The notes beneath the pieces are model-generated. The model worked only from the letters and a program-made list of their open reading frames with translations, was not told where the DNA came from and made no database searches. From NCBI RefSeq assembly GCF_000378965.1, contig NZ_KB900536.1, positions 3,039,407 to 3,103,406 on the forward strand: a stretch of DNA of 64,000 bases, given 5' to 3'. Below are positions 37,962 to 43,432 of the stretch, in pieces; within the stretch, counting starts at the first letter, position 1; each line of letters begins with the position of its first letter. Origin of the DNA: Thioalkalivibrio thiocyanodenitrificans ARhD 1. GTDB lineage: Bacteria > Pseudomonadota > Gammaproteobacteria > Ectothiorhodospirales > Ectothiorhodospiraceae. The position numbers and the translations under genes are program-made.

Positions 37962-38297
37962 ATGACCGAACCATCGCCCGAGGATGGGGCGCGGGTCAAC
38001 CTGGAGAGAAGGGGACACCCTGTCAGCTATGATTGGAGCGCGCCCAGGAAGGGGGCCAACCTGAGCGTCAATTCCGACTTTCCGGCCCGGGCGCGGGCGC
38101 TCAACATCAACCTTTCGCGGGCGTTCGAGGAGCGCCTCGCGGAGGTCGTTCGTCAAGCCGAACGTGAGCGCTGGGTAAAGGAGAACCAGGCCGCCATCGA
38201 GGACTACAACGCTCGCGTTGCGGAAAGCGGCAATTTCGGCGATACGGGGAAAGGGAAAGGGGAAGGGGAAGGAAAAGGGACGGAGTTCTACCCATAA
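37962..38297 (+). pseudogene. CcdA-like antitoxin without its toxin, altered C-terminus
   Basis: The core YDWSAPRKGANLSVNSDF and ALNINLSRAFEERLAE, then RWVKENQAAIEDYNARV, is typical of CcdA antitoxins. The last ~20 residues (KGKGEGEGKGTEFYP and neighbours) come from a purine-rich low-complexity run and not from the family. No ccdB follows. The only ATG is at 37962 and adds ~20 unrelated N-terminal residues. Most likely a decayed solitary antitoxin. Confidence 0.7.
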
Positions 38298-38300
38298 CCA

Positions 38301-38470
38301 AGTCCTATAGGATTGGTAAGAACAAAGTCATGGAATATTCACAGACGTCATATATATTCACAATTGTAATGCCATGATAAAAAACTAAAATTAGTCTAAA
38401 TCTAAAACTCAATAAGAAATTCAAGTAACACTTAATATTGTTTGATACATAATAAAAACGATTTCGTCAC
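38301..38470. other. AT-rich stretch at the left edge of the nitrile-hydratase-like island
   Basis: Very AT-rich compared with the rest of the window, with many A/T runs. Probably holds the promoter of the following operon and marks the edge of acquired DNA. No gene was seen. Confidence 0.5.
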
Positions 38471-38493
38471 GACTGTTAAGAGGCTGCGAGACC

Positions 38494-38886
38494 ATGAAAT
38501 CGCATAACGCACCGAAACGCGTGGATGAGATGGCGGATCCCGCCACTTTCGGTCACGACCGATTCAAGAAGTTGATGCATGTCATCCATGATCTCGGGGG
38601 TGAAAAGGGCGGGCCGATTTCTCTGGAAGAAAGAAAGTCCGAGCCGTGGGAACTTGGCACCTATGCAATCTGCGAGTGTCTCACTTGGCGTGGGGTCTGG
38701 ACCAATGTGGAAAAGCTCCGCCGGGGCGCCGATCTCGGCGATAAGTACCTGGCGGTGCCTTACTCCGGGCGCTGGTTGCTCGCTGCTATGCGGGCACTGG
38801 TCGACAAGCAACACATCACACTAACCGAGCTGACTGAAAAAATCGAAGAGGTAAAGAAACGCCATGCGCAGAAGTCGCTTCTCTGA
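38494..38886 (+). CDS. Nitrile hydratase beta-like subunit, N-terminal half
   Basis: 130 residues. The IHDLGGEKGGPISLEE segment (about 29-44) and the helical part ending YSGRWLLAAMRALVDKQHITL match the N-terminal half of the nitrile hydratase beta subunit. In thiocyanate hydrolase the beta subunit is split in the same way into two proteins (ScnB and ScnA). It overlaps the next gene by 23 bases. No alpha/ScnC subunit with the CxxCSC metal site is found nearby. Confidence 0.75.
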   Translation: MKSHNAPKRVDEMADPATFGHDRFKKLMHVIHDLGGEKGGPISLEERKSEPWELGTYAICECLTWRGVWTNVEKLRRGADLGDKYLAVPYSGRWLLAAMRALVDKQHITLTELTEKIEEVKKRHAQKSLL

Positions 38887-39289
38887 GATAAGTGACGAAG
38901 GATCGGGAAAGGCGACCGGTTCGCCGAAATTCAGTCATCTGCAGATCGCCGAGATCGCCGCGGGCGTCGGCGACCCACAGTGCTACCGAGGGATGGCTGG
39001 TACGCCGCCGCGGTTCAAGGTCAGTGATCGCTTACGCGTCAAGGACCAGCCTGATATTTTTTACAATCAGACTCCCGGTTACATACGAGGGATTATCGGA
39101 ACAGTCACCGAGATAGCCTACGAAAGCCCCGCTCCGGAGGATGAAGCTTGGGGGCACATTGATAAAGTCGAATGGTTTTATGTTTTGTGTTTTCGTCATG
39201 GAGACATATGGGAGGACGATTCCCCCGACACGAACCCAAACGACACGATACAGGCCCAGGTTTCCGAACGCTGGCTTGAGCCGGCATAG
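38864..39289 (+). CDS. Nitrile hydratase beta-like subunit, C-terminal half
   Basis: 141 residues. The C-terminal part is an SH3-like barrel (about 50-140) with FKVSDRLRVKDQP, GYIRGIIGTVTE and VSERWLEPA, which matches the C-terminal half of nitrile hydratase beta. The first ~45 residues are a linker. The gene begins inside the previous one, so translation is probably coupled. Whether the pair is an enzyme part, a metallochaperone or a new complex is open because the alpha subunit is missing. Confidence 0.75.
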   Translation: MRRSRFSEISDEGSGKATGSPKFSHLQIAEIAAGVGDPQCYRGMAGTPPRFKVSDRLRVKDQPDIFYNQTPGYIRGIIGTVTEIAYESPAPEDEAWGHIDKVEWFYVLCFRHGDIWEDDSPDTNPNDTIQAQVSERWLEPA

Positions 39290-39326
39290 ATTCAGGCTAA
39301 TCAACTTACGGATTTTGGAGTGTTTT

Positions 39327-39737
39327 ATGGTTCGAAAAAGCGCCCGTATCCCCCTGGCCTACAGCTGCTCAGGATGTTCCAGCGCCGCCCAACTCACAAA
39401 TACGCTGGTCTTGCGCCTTGCCCGGGATGGAGAAGCCCAGATGTCGTGCATCGCTGGGGTTGGCGCCGGCATACCGAAGTTCGTGCATCAGGCCACCTCA
39501 GGCCAACCGATCCTCGTTCTCGACGGGTGCCCATTGGCCTGTGCCCGTAATTGCTTGAAGCGCCATGGTGTTGAGCCGGATCGCTATGTGCAACTGCAGG
39601 AGTACGGGGTAAAGAAGCGTTACGGCCAGGAGGCGTCGGATGAAGATGTGGGGCGCTTGTATCCGAGGATTGTGGAACTGGCACGTGAGCTTCGTTCCCA
39701 ATATGAACAAGTGTATGGCACGGCGCTGGTCCGATGA
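39327..39737 (+). CDS. DGC-domain putative zinc-binding protein
   Basis: 136 residues from the ATG at 39327 with GGAG upstream. Conserved cysteines occur in YSCSGCSSAAQ (18-28), MSCIAGVG and DGCPLACARNC, the signature of the DGC (aspartate-glycine-cysteine) family thought to bind zinc. It follows the nitrile-hydratase-like pair by 37 bases on the same strand. It could help with metal delivery, but that is an inference from context. Confidence 0.8.
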   Translation: MVRKSARIPLAYSCSGCSSAAQLTNTLVLRLARDGEAQMSCIAGVGAGIPKFVHQATSGQPILVLDGCPLACARNCLKRHGVEPDRYVQLQEYGVKKRYGQEASDEDVGRLYPRIVELARELRSQYEQVYGTALVR

Positions 39738-39913
39738 CAAGATCCACGTCCGAGAACAAAGATCCACAGCCCCCGCGAGAATGTTCGAAGTTCGGTGGCG
39801 TTCGCAATCGTCCGCAGGAGAGATACATATAAGCCTGACGCAGGGGAGGAAAGGATTGCGCAACGGGGTTTTCATAACGTACATGGCGAAACACAAAGAG
39901 GGAAAAGAATCCG

Positions 39914-41692
39914 ATGAGCTCCACTACCGCAGGACATGAATCTCTCTTCAACGACGACGGGGAAACCGCTGGCCGTCCGTTGAGAATGAAGGGTCATCAA
40001 TTCCTCGCGGAGGTGGTGCGTCGATCGGGCGCGAAGGCCGTGTTTTTTGTGCCGACATTCCTGTATCCAACGCTTGTGGAGTGGGCTGATGTTCCGATTA
40101 AGCGCGTCTTGTGTCATTCGGAAAAGGCCGCAGGCTATATGGCCGACGGCTATGCGCAGGCGTCGGGTATTCCAACCATCGTGATTGCACAGGGTGGGCC
40201 TGGGGCATCGAACCTGTACGCAGGCCTCGTAGATGCCTGGCAAAGCCACACTCCGGTGCTCGCAGTGACCCCGGTTCTTCCAAGTTCACGTTACCATGGC
40301 AACGCCTATCAGGAGGCCTATGTCGATTTCCGGACGGTGACCAAGTACGACGCAGAGGTGCGGACAATCGAGAGGATGGCCGAGTTCCTGGGAAAGGCTT
40401 ACAGGGAGATGACCACGGGGGCACCGCGGCCGGTCCATCTGTACCTGGACGGCGCGCTGGAAGCGGAGGAGTCGGAGTTCGATTTTCGGTACCTGGATCA
40501 GCGGTACTTTTCCTATCCGGCGTTTCGTCCGCGCGCAGACGATGATCTAGTGGAGCGTGCAATCCAGGAGCTTCGCCATGCGGAGCGCCCCGTGATGGTT
40601 TGCGGTCGTGGCACGGTGGTTTCCGGCGCTTGGGCGGAGGTGACGGCATTGGCGGAGCAGTTGGATATACCGGTCACCACGACCTTGGGCGGCAAGGGCA
40701 GCATTGACGATCGACACCCCTTGGCACTGGGGGTGACCGGCTCCTACCGACGGCCCTCGACCGATCAGGTGATTCTCGACGCAGACCTGGTGCTCCATGT
40801 GGGTACTCATTTCGGCGGGGCGACGACGAACATGAGGCAGATGCCCAAGCCGGGGGTGCGAGCCATCCACATTGACATCAATCCTGCACAGCCCGGGGCC
40901 AATTATCCCAATGTGTTGCCACTTGTAGGTGATGCGCGAACGGTCTTGGGGCAGATGTTGGACGCCGTGCGGTCAGGGGGGCGGGGAAGGCACGGTGTAT
41001 GGGTGAAAACGGCGCAGAAACGGTTGACCGAGTGGCGGGAAAGCCAACGTGACAACATGTATGGGGATGCTATTCCGATTCGGCCGGAGCGATTGGCGGT
41101 TGAGCTTGTCAAAGCGTGTCCGGAAGACACGCTCTACGTCACGGGCACGGGCTATGCGGGGACATGGGCCGGTGTATTCATGGATCTTCCGGCAGGGAAA
41201 AGCTGCCTTCACTGCGAGGGGAGCCTGGGTTGGGCATTTCCGGCGGCTATAGGTGCCAAGGCTGCAGTGCCCGATCGGCCGGTCCTCGCGTTCGAGAGTG
41301 ATGGCGGGTTCTTTTATCATCTCACTGAACTTGAGACGGCTGTTCGAAACGGTATCAACCTGGTTACGGTAGTGTTGAATAACCAGGCCATGGCTTTGCA
41401 GACGCATCTGCTTCAGGCCTGCTGGCCGGGTTATCGTGACTTGGACAAATTATCGAAGTTCGGGAAAACGAATTTCGCCAACATCGCGCGGGAGATGGGA
41501 ACCTGGGGTATCCGTGTGACGGACCCGAGGGACATTGGAGAAGCGGTGAGGAATGCGATCGATGCGGACAGGCCGGCGGTGGTGGATGTGGTAATCGATC
41601 AGGCCGCAGTCGCGCCCATGGCTTTCATGGCGGGGCAGGGGAGCCGCGCGACTGCATTGCCGGTACCGAAAAACAAGAAACGTTACGAGTAA
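39914..41692 (+). CDS. Thiamine diphosphate-dependent enzyme (acetolactate synthase-like family)
   Basis: 592 residues with the three domains of the ThDP-dependent acetolactate synthase/decarboxylase family. The catalytic glutamate is likely in LCHSEKAAGYMADGYA (about 67-82). The ThDP-binding motif of the C-terminal domain reads ESDGGFF...VVLNNQ, where the usual GDG is SDG. It is the largest gene of the island and follows the DGC gene after 176 bases. The substrate is not clear; 2-oxoacids or similar carbonyl compounds are possible. Convergent with the LysR gene. Confidence 0.85.
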   Translation: MSSTTAGHESLFNDDGETAGRPLRMKGHQFLAEVVRRSGAKAVFFVPTFLYPTLVEWADVPIKRVLCHSEKAAGYMADGYAQASGIPTIVIAQGGPGASNLYAGLVDAWQSHTPVLAVTPVLPSSRYHGNAYQEAYVDFRTVTKYDAEVRTIERMAEFLGKAYREMTTGAPRPVHLYLDGALEAEESEFDFRYLDQRYFSYPAFRPRADDDLVERAIQELRHAERPVMVCGRGTVVSGAWAEVTALAEQLDIPVTTTLGGKGSIDDRHPLALGVTGSYRRPSTDQVILDADLVLHVGTHFGGATTNMRQMPKPGVRAIHIDINPAQPGANYPNVLPLVGDARTVLGQMLDAVRSGGRGRHGVWVKTAQKRLTEWRESQRDNMYGDAIPIRPERLAVELVKACPEDTLYVTGTGYAGTWAGVFMDLPAGKSCLHCEGSLGWAFPAAIGAKAAVPDRPVLAFESDGGFFYHLTELETAVRNGINLVTVVLNNQAMALQTHLLQACWPGYRDLDKLSKFGKTNFANIAREMGTWGIRVTDPRDIGEAVRNAIDADRPAVVDVVIDQAAVAPMAFMAGQGSRATALPVPKNKKRYE

Positions 41693-41721
41693 CATGCCCG
41701 ACGATGCTCTCCGCCGTTTCG

Positions 41722-42750
41722 TCAGTTCCCATTTCCACTCCCGTTTCCCTTGGCAGTGGTTCGCCGCTTCCCATCTTCATATAAAGAGTGCTTCTCTGAG
41801 AGGGCACAAGGTTTCGATCGTCGACTGGAGGGGTGCTCATCCCTGTGAGCGGCCCAGTCCAATGCAAGCGCCGTGAAGGCTCGACACGCCGGACTCTTAT
41901 ATCCATTTTTGCGGCAGATGATGGTGATCGCCTTAGGAGGCAATTGCGGAGAGATCCGAATCCCGCAAATCCCATACTGCGTGCGTACAATGGACCGAGG
42001 AAGCACGCTGGCCAACTGGCCGGATTGGACCATTTTTATGATCACACTGAGAGAATCCGTTTCCATTGCGATACGCGGCAGAATGTCGAGATCATGGCAA
42101 TACAGATCTATGTGCCGTCTCAGTTCAAAATTTGTATTGAGCAGTATCAACGCTTCTTGTGAGAATTCCCGAACGCTCACCCCCTGTCGTTGTTTGGCGC
42201 GAGGATGATCATGAGAAATCGCGAGGAAAAGGTCTTCTTTGAAAAGCATTTCGGTCTTGACGTTGCTCGATGCCGGCTGGGTCGACAGCGGCACGCTGAA
42301 TACGATACCGACGTCGATATCGTCCTCTGCCACGGCCGCCTCAACGTCGTCCTGAGGCATTTCAAAAGTGCTTAGCGTAATGCCTGGATAGAGATTGTTG
42401 TAGCTAATTAGTAAGGAGCAAGTCAGGTAATCTGTAATTGGGGTCCATCCAAGGCGAAGTAAACCACGGCTTAGATCCTGCACATCAGAGATGGCCCGGG
42501 TTCCCGCGTCCAGTTCTCCCCAGGCGCGACGGGCATGGCCCAAATAGATTTCCCCGGCATCAGTCAGTCGTATGTTGCGCGCGGATCTGTTCACCAGCAG
42601 CGTCCCCAAAGACGCTTCAAGCTGCTTTATTTGTTGTGACAAGGTCGGCTGGGAAACATGCAAGGCCTCGGCCGCCCGCGTGTAGCTTCCGTATTCCGCG
42701 ATGGCCAGCAGGTATTGGAGGCAACGTGGGAAAATAACTCGTCGATCCAT
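41722..42750 (-). CDS. LysR-family transcriptional regulator
   Basis: 342 residues. N-terminal winged helix-turn-helix (about 1-60: LQYLLAIAEYGSYTRAAEAL, then VSQPTLSQQIKQLEASLG) and a LysR substrate-binding domain (about 90-300) of the CynR type. A Ser/Lys/Gly-rich tail of ~35 residues is unusual. The gene is convergent with the ThDP gene and separated by 30 bases. Its promoter lies in an AT-rich stretch. A nitrile-, cyanate- or related-compound ligand is only a guess from the neighbourhood. Confidence 0.85.
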   Translation of the reverse strand: MDRRVIFPRCLQYLLAIAEYGSYTRAAEALHVSQPTLSQQIKQLEASLGTLLVNRSARNIRLTDAGEIYLGHARRAWGELDAGTRAISDVQDLSRGLLRLGWTPITDYLTCSLLISYNNLYPGITLSTFEMPQDDVEAAVAEDDIDVGIVFSVPLSTQPASSNVKTEMLFKEDLFLAISHDHPRAKQRQGVSVREFSQEALILLNTNFELRRHIDLYCHDLDILPRIAMETDSLSVIIKMVQSGQLASVLPRSIVRTQYGICGIRISPQLPPKAITIICRKNGYKSPACRAFTALALDWAAHRDEHPSSRRSKPCALSEKHSLYEDGKRRTTAKGNGSGNGN

Positions 42751-43432
42751 AGACCACCCCTATGGGCTCAGAGGTACCGAAGCTACAAACCGATGATAGA
42801 GAACTTTTTCAATGAAAGAGTTCTTACACTTATCATTGCAGTGAATCACATAATAAGAACGTAAATATTGATAAAAATCATTTTATGTACAAGTTTCGTA
42901 ATTGCCTGGCAGGCGGGGTCTCCGGCAGTTGAGGACGCCGCCTTTTTTCCACGTTGGTGTCGGCCTTGGGGACGACGGATGGAACCTTCTTCCGGCCGAG
43001 CGCCTCGCGCAGCGCCTGCATAGGGGTCAAGTCTAGTAATATGCAGTAATATGAGAGGAAAAATGATCTTCATCATTCTCACATTCCCGCGTCCCCACAT
43101 CTCGCGATCATCCCCCGAATCCGTTGAACAGTCCGTTCAACGCCGGGTGTATGTCTGCGACCACGAGCTTTCCTGGATGTGGATCCTGCGCGAGGCCTTG
43201 CGCTCCGAGTGGGTGGACCAGTCGCCAACGGTACATGCGGAGGATGCACAGGCAACACGGACGATCCGCCTTTGCCACTATCCGGGCGTCGAGAGATAAT
43301 GAAAGCCTGTCGCGACAGGGGGGCGCGATAACGGCATGATCGGTCCGCGACGGCCGCATTTGCCGAGCCGGCGGGACAGGTGTGAACGCGGCGGTGACCA
43401 GCCCCTCAACAGCCCGATCATAAAGGAACGCC
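42751..43432. other. Gene-free stretch after the LysR gene
   Basis: AT-rich at 42780-42900, with an inverted repeat GAACTTTTTCA/TGAAAGAGTTC near 42801-42823 that may be a LysR operator or terminator. The middle has interspersed repeat copy 10. A minus-strand fragment at 42900-43020 (ALGRKKVPSVVPKADTN) may be a gene tail but is not recognised. Confidence 0.4.
43023..43050 (+). repeat. Interspersed repeat copy 10
   Basis: GGGGTCAAGTCTAGTAATAT then GCAGTAAT; intact copy. Confidence 0.75.

Follow-up and report, generated by a model that had tools for sequence, protein, structure and literature searches.

The Gene Block in the Window

The window considered here is a stretch of 64,000 nucleotides from Thioalkalivibrio thiocyanodenitrificans ARhD 1, and our subject is a block of four genes within it that are read in one direction. 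They encode paralogues of the beta and alpha subunits of thiocyanate hydrolase (SCNase), named ScnB' and ScnA', a DGC-domain protein and a large thiamine diphosphate (ThDP)-dependent enzyme, and a CynR-like LysR gene converges on them (Table 1). Judged from sequence, the four genes form an accessory module whose tie to the thiocyanate hydrolase genes is twofold: they occur in the same genomes and share an operator-like motif. A preliminary description of this DNA had already placed the open reading frames (ORFs), their domains and their orientation as our ORF list and Pfam/NCBIfam scans give them, including the DGC protein (Pfam DGC, 114.4 bits vs. a cut-off of 27), the CynR-like convergent LysR (340.2 bits vs. 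the 277 of the CynR cut-off, PRK11242) and the AT-rich flanks (GC 0.311 at 38298-38493 and 0.477 at 42751-43050, with 0.623 for the window). It also stated that the nitrile hydratase (NHase)-beta-like pair had no metal-binding alpha subunit, the gamma subunit of SCNase. This stands for the block, since ORFs and the domain scan of the window give no gamma subunit with the CTLCSC cobalt motif inside it, and fails for the genome, where one NHase_alpha gene exists.

Table 1. Positions, in the window, of the module and the features around it.
Feature	Position	Strand	Remarks
ccdA-like antitoxin gene	37962..38297	+	Left island edge; without ccdB-like partner here
Island, ~4.77 kb	38248..43018	none	From blastn of window 30-50 kb vs. 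L158 of G001
LysR-type operator-like motif AGTCCTATAGGATTGGTAAGAACAAAGTCATGG	38301..38333	+	Upstream of scnB'
scnB'	38494..38886	+	NHase_beta_N match; paralogue of SCNase beta subunit
scnA'	38864..39289	+	NHase_beta_C match; paralogue of SCNase alpha subunit
ScnA' Gln69 codon	39068..39070	+	Takes the place of the Arg in canonical alpha subunits; at NHase betaArg157 in the alignment
DGC-domain (PF08859) gene	39327..39737	+	Start set by orthologue alignment; open frame begins at 39141
ThDP-dependent enzyme gene, acetolactate-synthase superfamily	39914..41692	+	Three TPP_enzyme domains; SDG instead of GDG
CynR-like LysR gene	41722..42750	-	Convergent; above CynR cut-off

Co-occurrence With the Thiocyanate Hydrolase Genes

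An alignment of ScnA' with four canonical alpha subunits was searched against the genome_contigs collection (84,980 species), and the best 80 of 121 relatives, in 77 loci, were taken as the ScnA-type set, with the 41 weaker relatives outside all comparisons. Ten of these loci (L012-L021) carry the module, as does the window, and the remaining 67 are canonical; three of the latter belong to module genomes (L060 with L017, L085 with L013, L077 with L018), leaving 64 other SCNase genomes. The four genes stand together in 10/10 of the other loci with a module-type ScnA', always in the order scnB'-scnA'-DGC-ThDP and with ScnA' 64-83% identical, in records named as beta-, gamma- and alphaproteobacterial. 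The set proposed in the preliminary description is in this sense a conserved unit, and the alternative it had foreseen, that its members never occur together, is contradicted by this shared order. Most of the other loci have the module next to, or within, an scn cluster: in L014 and L018 it comes immediately behind scnC, and in L015 cyanase lies on one side of it and scnB on the other.

In the genome of the window, a PF02979 search returned one gene (C1:844687-845265, E 9.8e-69), situated ~2.2 Mb along the same contig, which is scnC. It carries VVCTLCSC and belongs to an operon scnB-scnA-scnC-P15K (L001), whose fourth gene we take, by its position, to be P15K. The neighbors of this operon are genes for a CynR-like LysR, cyanase, an ABC-transporter ATPase, a substrate-binding protein and the cobalt transporter CbtA, as well as a DsrE-like protein and a pyridine nucleotide-disulfide oxidoreductase. 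The alpha-type (gamma) gene accompanies the module in 11/11 module genomes, two of them with fragments only: it is complete in the genome of the window and above the PF02979 cut-off in 8/10 others, whereas G703 has two contig-edge ends below that cut-off, and G707, blank for PF02979, yields by tblastn contig-edge pieces of 46 (L018) and 40 (L077) residues that are 89-92% identical. The module also follows scnC in L143, and in L014 it precedes another scnBA; contig breaks inside scnC of the L014, L018 and L143 metagenome-assembled genomes (MAGs) suggest duplicated scn copies.

The ThDP enzyme is rare outside this set. At E <= 1e-100 it was matched in 1/64 other SCNase genomes (1/50 plus 0/14), namely by a 44% identical protein of G715 in a different context, and the same search returned the module copy of G707 as a positive check. 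Matches were found in 2/274 genomes of the class at E <= 1e-120 (own and G155), and in 2/398 genomes of the phylum at E <= 1e-85 (own and a 36% relative). A plasmid search with ScnA' gave six records, all below 60% identity and none module-like; three of them were examined, two having an annotated scnC beside the match and one an NHase-alpha-like ORF, recognized by eye. Adaptation to anaerobic life was considered as a common trait of module genomes and dropped, because NarG frequencies are not clearly different (above cut-off in 5/11 module genomes, not including the own one, vs. 10/40 other SCNase genomes, a subset of the 64).

Kantor et al. (2015) are cited by others for an scn operon conserved in Thiobacillus from bioreactors. 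To judge by its name, the Thiobacillus 63-78 'SCNpilot' record (L015) may stem from work of this sort, where the module may therefore already be depicted. In the literature searched, with that paper and most subscription journals outside it, the accessible texts gave no description of the module, and nothing was found joining thiocyanate hydrolase to acetolactate synthase operons or thiamine pyrophosphate; for thiocyanate hydrolase together with LysR the search led only to Mycobacterium. The scn gene contexts of T. thioparus DSM 505 and Tv. thiocyanodenitrificans are given without such a module in the accessible part of one paper (PMC5328954), and the accessible parts of four others do not mention it (PMC5458468, PMC8061750, PMC6382920, PMC6172326).

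A Common Operator-Like Motif

Two 33-bp sites lie between the own scnB and its LysR gene. With a model made from these two sites, window position 38301 ranked first in the 64 kb (13.6; next non-overlapping site, 4.5), and a second model, built on ten canonical scnB/lysR sites chosen among earlier hits and none from module promoters, gave it 28.6, vs. 2.6 for the next site and 11.3 as the highest score reached in 20 local shuffles of the window. A degenerate pattern derived from all three sites found only these three in the own genome, none further at <=3 mismatches, and 0 with the reversed control. According to the second model, the motif (score 15 to 34) is present upstream of the module in 7/11 cases (window, L012, L015, L016, L017, L019, and L020); in L017 and L020 it precedes a multicopper-oxidase-domain ORF located just before scnB' (L017:8467-9570, from Pfam; L020:8419-9570, from homology). 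The distance from motif to scnB' is ~0.2 to 0.6 kb, and more in L017 and L020, so that some sites are far from the gene. The 8-base core AGTCCTAY occurs only in the window and in the own scn promoter (1/9 module and 1/74 canonical upstream regions), and the match elsewhere thus rests on the longer motif. The LysR of the window and its counterpart at the canonical scn operon of the own genome share 64% identity.

The preliminary description knew of no pathway that the set would fit, a view that the co-occurrence with the gamma gene and the common motif largely overturn, tying the module to what would be the thiocyanate hydrolase regulon. It had also named a co-expressed alpha gene at another place in the genome as an argument against its own reading; as far as the DNA can tell, this is the situation found, since the gamma gene exists and its operon bears the motif.

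Other genes carry similar sites. A clade of GlcF-like Fe-S proteins near scn clusters (66-91% mutual identity, 44-48% to a second GlcF-like protein of the own genome) is encoded at L041:1311-2693, L015:3761-5197, L017:5439-6797 and L020:4801-6165, with the scn operator-like motif just upstream (L041:1154, L015:5312, L017:6857, L020:6225), and at C1:818195-819523 (L147) in the own genome, where the second model finds no good motif. This clade may also belong to the thiocyanate regulon. A strong scn-type motif (28.6) was also observed at L016:15018 and L019:15130, in both cases less than 1 kb from a gene of the formate/nitrite-transporter family that lies downstream of the ThDP gene.

ScnB' and ScnA' as Altered Hydrolase Subunits

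The preliminary description took the first two genes for NHase-beta halves related to thiocyanate hydrolase, and PDB matches specify them as paralogues of SCNase beta and alpha. For ScnB', thiocyanate hydrolase beta (2dd4_B, E 1.9e-32) is the sole match at E <= 0.001; for ScnA', the best match is thiocyanate hydrolase alpha (2dd4_A, E 8.4e-37), followed by an NHase beta (6.6e-08). The 11 ScnA' rows form one clade vs. 75 canonical rows (support 99/99; 0/500 shuffles as low), in a tree with few columns and a bootstrap not fully settled. Strict class differences are few, the clearest being Gln69 in 11/11 ScnA' vs. Arg in 75/75 canonical rows. Gln69 falls at NHase betaArg157 by the range of the 1ire_B match (46-135 to 134-220, if ungapped), and the 3qxe alignment shows Arg there. 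The second arginine, equivalent to betaArg52, is kept in ScnB' as R76, counted by hand on the 2dd4_B alignment. ScnA' retains 35/44 near-invariant alpha positions and ScnB' 28/46 near-invariant beta positions, a count that excludes both L021 rows, the ScnB' of this locus having been grouped with canonical ScnB. The latter protein scored best vs. canonical ScnB (48%), was assigned by place and sequence, and keeps Asp where the 10 other ScnB' have Gly. As a side observation, the ScnA of L080, from a MAG labeled Rhizobium, is identical to that of Thiobacillus thioparus DSM 505 (L076), and its contig is likely mis-binned.

All four module genes are under purifying selection, with dN/dS of 0.09-0.19 (14/16 pairs computable), values that are rough because two pairs are saturated and several others have dS > 1. 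On the evidence of tree and alignments, ScnA', and with it ScnB', goes back to an old duplication of the hydrolase subunits, and of the arginine pair that holds the oxidized cobalt-ligand cysteines one member is gone from ScnA'. In the accessible text of work on NHase, betaArg52 and betaArg157 are described as holding the modified cysteines, the Arg-Cys salt bridges as driving subunit swapping, and swapping is speculated for SCNase too (PMC7193024, PMC7587978); mutating one of these arginines is stated there to abolish NHase activity (PMC7587978). By the tested features, no gamma in the block and the lost Arg, ScnB'A' would not itself be a thiocyanate hydrolase.

The ThDP Enzyme and the DGC Protein

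The ThDP enzyme is the longest member of the module; its gene comes fourth in every locus, and identity across the set is 75-81%. It has three TPP domains, Glu70 (invariant in 11) and a D463...N489N490 cofactor motif, and because Glu70, Asp463 and Asn489/490 are present it should bind ThDP. The SDG motif that the preliminary description found unusual is real in the window copy and private to it, as GDG occurs in 10/10 orthologues; it is not a feature of the family. The enzyme is below cut-off in the 25 of 55 NCBIfam matches listed (PRK06112, 319.9 vs. 673 bits; acolac_lg, 314.8 vs. 538.35 bits), and its predicted structure is poor (mean pLDDT 60.9). Four relatives examined outside the module are 35-44% identical and lie in other contexts, next to TctC-type receptors, FAA hydrolases, a ketopantoate-reductase family gene or an amino-acid ABC transporter (the neighbors in L128 being unannotated), with no ScnB', ScnA' or DGC match beside them. 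Glyoxylate carboligase, among the high-scoring PDB relatives, has Val in place of the cofactor Glu, which is kept here, and this identity finds no support. The GlcF-like gene after the ThDP gene in L021 was likewise set aside as a hint of glyoxylate, being only 36% identical to the scn-near clade.

In the DGC protein, Cys14, 17, 41, 68, and 72 are invariant (alignment of 11), and these five cysteines are what may be expected for metal or Fe-S binding. Its best predicted model has a mean pLDDT of 78.7 (the other four, 64-67), without PDB match at E <= 0.001. DGC relatives were found in 20/398 genomes of the phylum, own included. Of their loci (L116-L127) four were scanned, and three adjoin U32-peptidase/SCP2 family, NrdD or MoeA genes, the first of these being UbiU/V/T-like; such neighbors hint at low-oxygen metal or cofactor metabolism. 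Literature matches for the DGC domain concerned, by title and abstract, diguanylate cyclases or other matters.

An Island in the Genus

In G001, a genome of the same genus that is 82% complete, the corresponding site sits on one contig: window 38247 corresponds to L158:9242 and window 43019 to L158:10343 (blastn), with ~94-97% identity on both sides. Where the window has 4.77 kb, G001 holds an unrelated 1.1 kb with a ccdB-like ORF after ccdA, which we recognized by eye (L158:9005-9578 region), and another ORF. From this comparison, the module and its LysR gene came, or went, as one block. Of the five genus genomes, G001 yields a single ScnA-type match, which is canonical, and G002-G004 yield none. 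No convincing target-site duplication was found among repeats at the island edges, and promoter and terminator scans gave about the chance number of sites. The ccdA-like gene of the window stands without the ccdB-like partner that G001 has at the same site.

Proposed Role and Alternatives

We tentatively propose, with a probability of about 0.42, that ScnB'A' docks on the gamma subunit as a catalytically weakened scaffold or maturation partner. Thiocyanate, acting via LysR, would switch on both the canonical scn operon and the module; ScnB'A' would still bind the shared gamma (ScnC), as a weakened partner, and would hold it in its immature state or in an alternative gamma complex. Gamma would be released once its cysteines are oxidized, the canonical beta/alpha pair, with both arginines, binding it tighter, in a hand-over that would resemble the self-subunit swapping which activator proteins perform for NHase. 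The DGC protein may serve the metal or thiol chemistry of the same step, and the ThDP enzyme may run a separate carbon reaction needed during thiocyanate degradation.

Several observations weigh against this proposal. The ThDP enzyme, long and well conserved as it is, has no role in docking, and 63/64 other SCNase genomes do without it, no match at E <= 1e-100 having been returned for them. ScnB' has lost 18/46 near-invariant beta positions, and gamma binding might be lost with them. P15K, the canonical activator, adjoins scnC in the own genome, and a second maturation partner is therefore not obviously needed. Finally, L013 has no motif above noise, L014 and L018, with the module directly after scnC, have no site of their own, and the contig of L021 starts at the module, leaving no upstream region for the motif scan.

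The main rivals of docking on gamma give the pair other partners or another activity. ScnB'A' could be small accessory subunits of the ThDP enzyme, which would be the real catalyst of a gamma-independent complex with the DGC protein, and this complex would deal with a carbon product or toxic by-product that arises as thiocyanate is broken down. Separate small subunits are known from acetolactate synthases, and the ThDP enzyme, highly conserved and constantly last of the four, is a family of its own with respect to its four outside relatives. Nonetheless, ScnB' and ScnA' still look, in much of their sequence, like a pair that binds gamma and are missing beside those relatives, and we regard this explanation as doubtful. 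A second isoenzyme, in which ScnB'A' and the shared gamma would make an active hydrolase or hydratase with a changed active site, is rather unlikely. Its substrate would be another nitrile-like compound, such as cyanide adducts or organic nitriles, or thiocyanate at another concentration, with the DGC protein and ThDP enzyme processing the product. The co-present gamma, whose operon bears the same motif, the conservation of most near-invariant alpha positions and of R76, and the purifying selection would all agree with it; on the other hand, no amidase was seen among the selection of module neighbors scanned, and the replaced Arg is one of the two whose mutation is said, in the accessible text, to abolish NHase activity (PMC7587978).

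A more far-reaching version, which we consider improbable, would see in the pseudo-subunit pair a regulated placeholder for the cobalt gamma subunit, coupling SCNase to thiocyanate carbon metabolism through a new ThDP enzyme, whose reaction would be a step of the carbonyl sulfide pathway undescribed in the literature searched. The preliminary description was possibly right that the beta fold has a new use here. Its reading of an unrelated pathway in which this fold works without any alpha/gamma subunit agrees with the lack of gamma inside the block of the window; it is largely refuted by the gamma gene (or its fragments) in 11/11 genomes, the common motif and the scn clusters adjoining most other loci, and is now very improbable. 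Least credible of all is that the module is a functionless duplicate in decay, carried along with the thiocyanate genes: the private SDG change and the patchy distribution would suit it, but dN/dS of 0.09-0.19 in four genes, the same order in 11 loci and a motif kept in 7/11 speak otherwise.

Thiocyanate degradation is used in waste-water treatment, and its route by way of the hydrolase, which converts SCN- to COS and NH3, is commonly described as consisting of ScnABC and P15K. A module tied to it that has weakened subunit copies and a ThDP enzyme hints that steps of maturation or of carbon handling are missing from this picture. The Gln-for-Arg difference offers a simple, direct handle on the idea that subunit swapping among NHase-family enzymes is driven by Arg-Cys salt bridges.

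Comparison With Known Systems

The LysR of the window is CynR-like by score, but it adjoins scnB'A'-DGC-ThDP and not cyanase, next to which its paralogue at the canonical operon does stand. Similarly, the DGC protein is above the cut-off of its Pfam family (PF08859), whereas the other DGC loci have the U32-peptidase/SCP2, NrdD or MoeA neighbors mentioned above. The ThDP enzyme shares three TPP domains, Glu70 and the cofactor motif with acetolactate synthase and PRK06112-type proteins, and remains, unlike acetolactate synthase, below the equivalog cut-off (314.8 vs. 538.35 bits). The activators of Co-type NHase, which are self-subunit swapping chaperones that bind the apo form of the metal subunit and supply its cobalt, are said to resemble only the N-terminal part of the beta fold; ScnB'A' may, like them, bind the metal subunit before maturation, but comprise both halves of that fold. 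The closest likeness is to thiocyanate hydrolase itself, ScnABC with P15K (2dd4, Thiobacillus thioparus): ScnB' and ScnA' share homology with its beta and alpha subunits along most of the chain, the subunit genes overlap, and the regulator type and operator-like motif are common to both loci. The module differs in that its block has neither gamma nor P15K, in the Gln that replaces a conserved Arg, and in the DGC and ThDP genes that follow.

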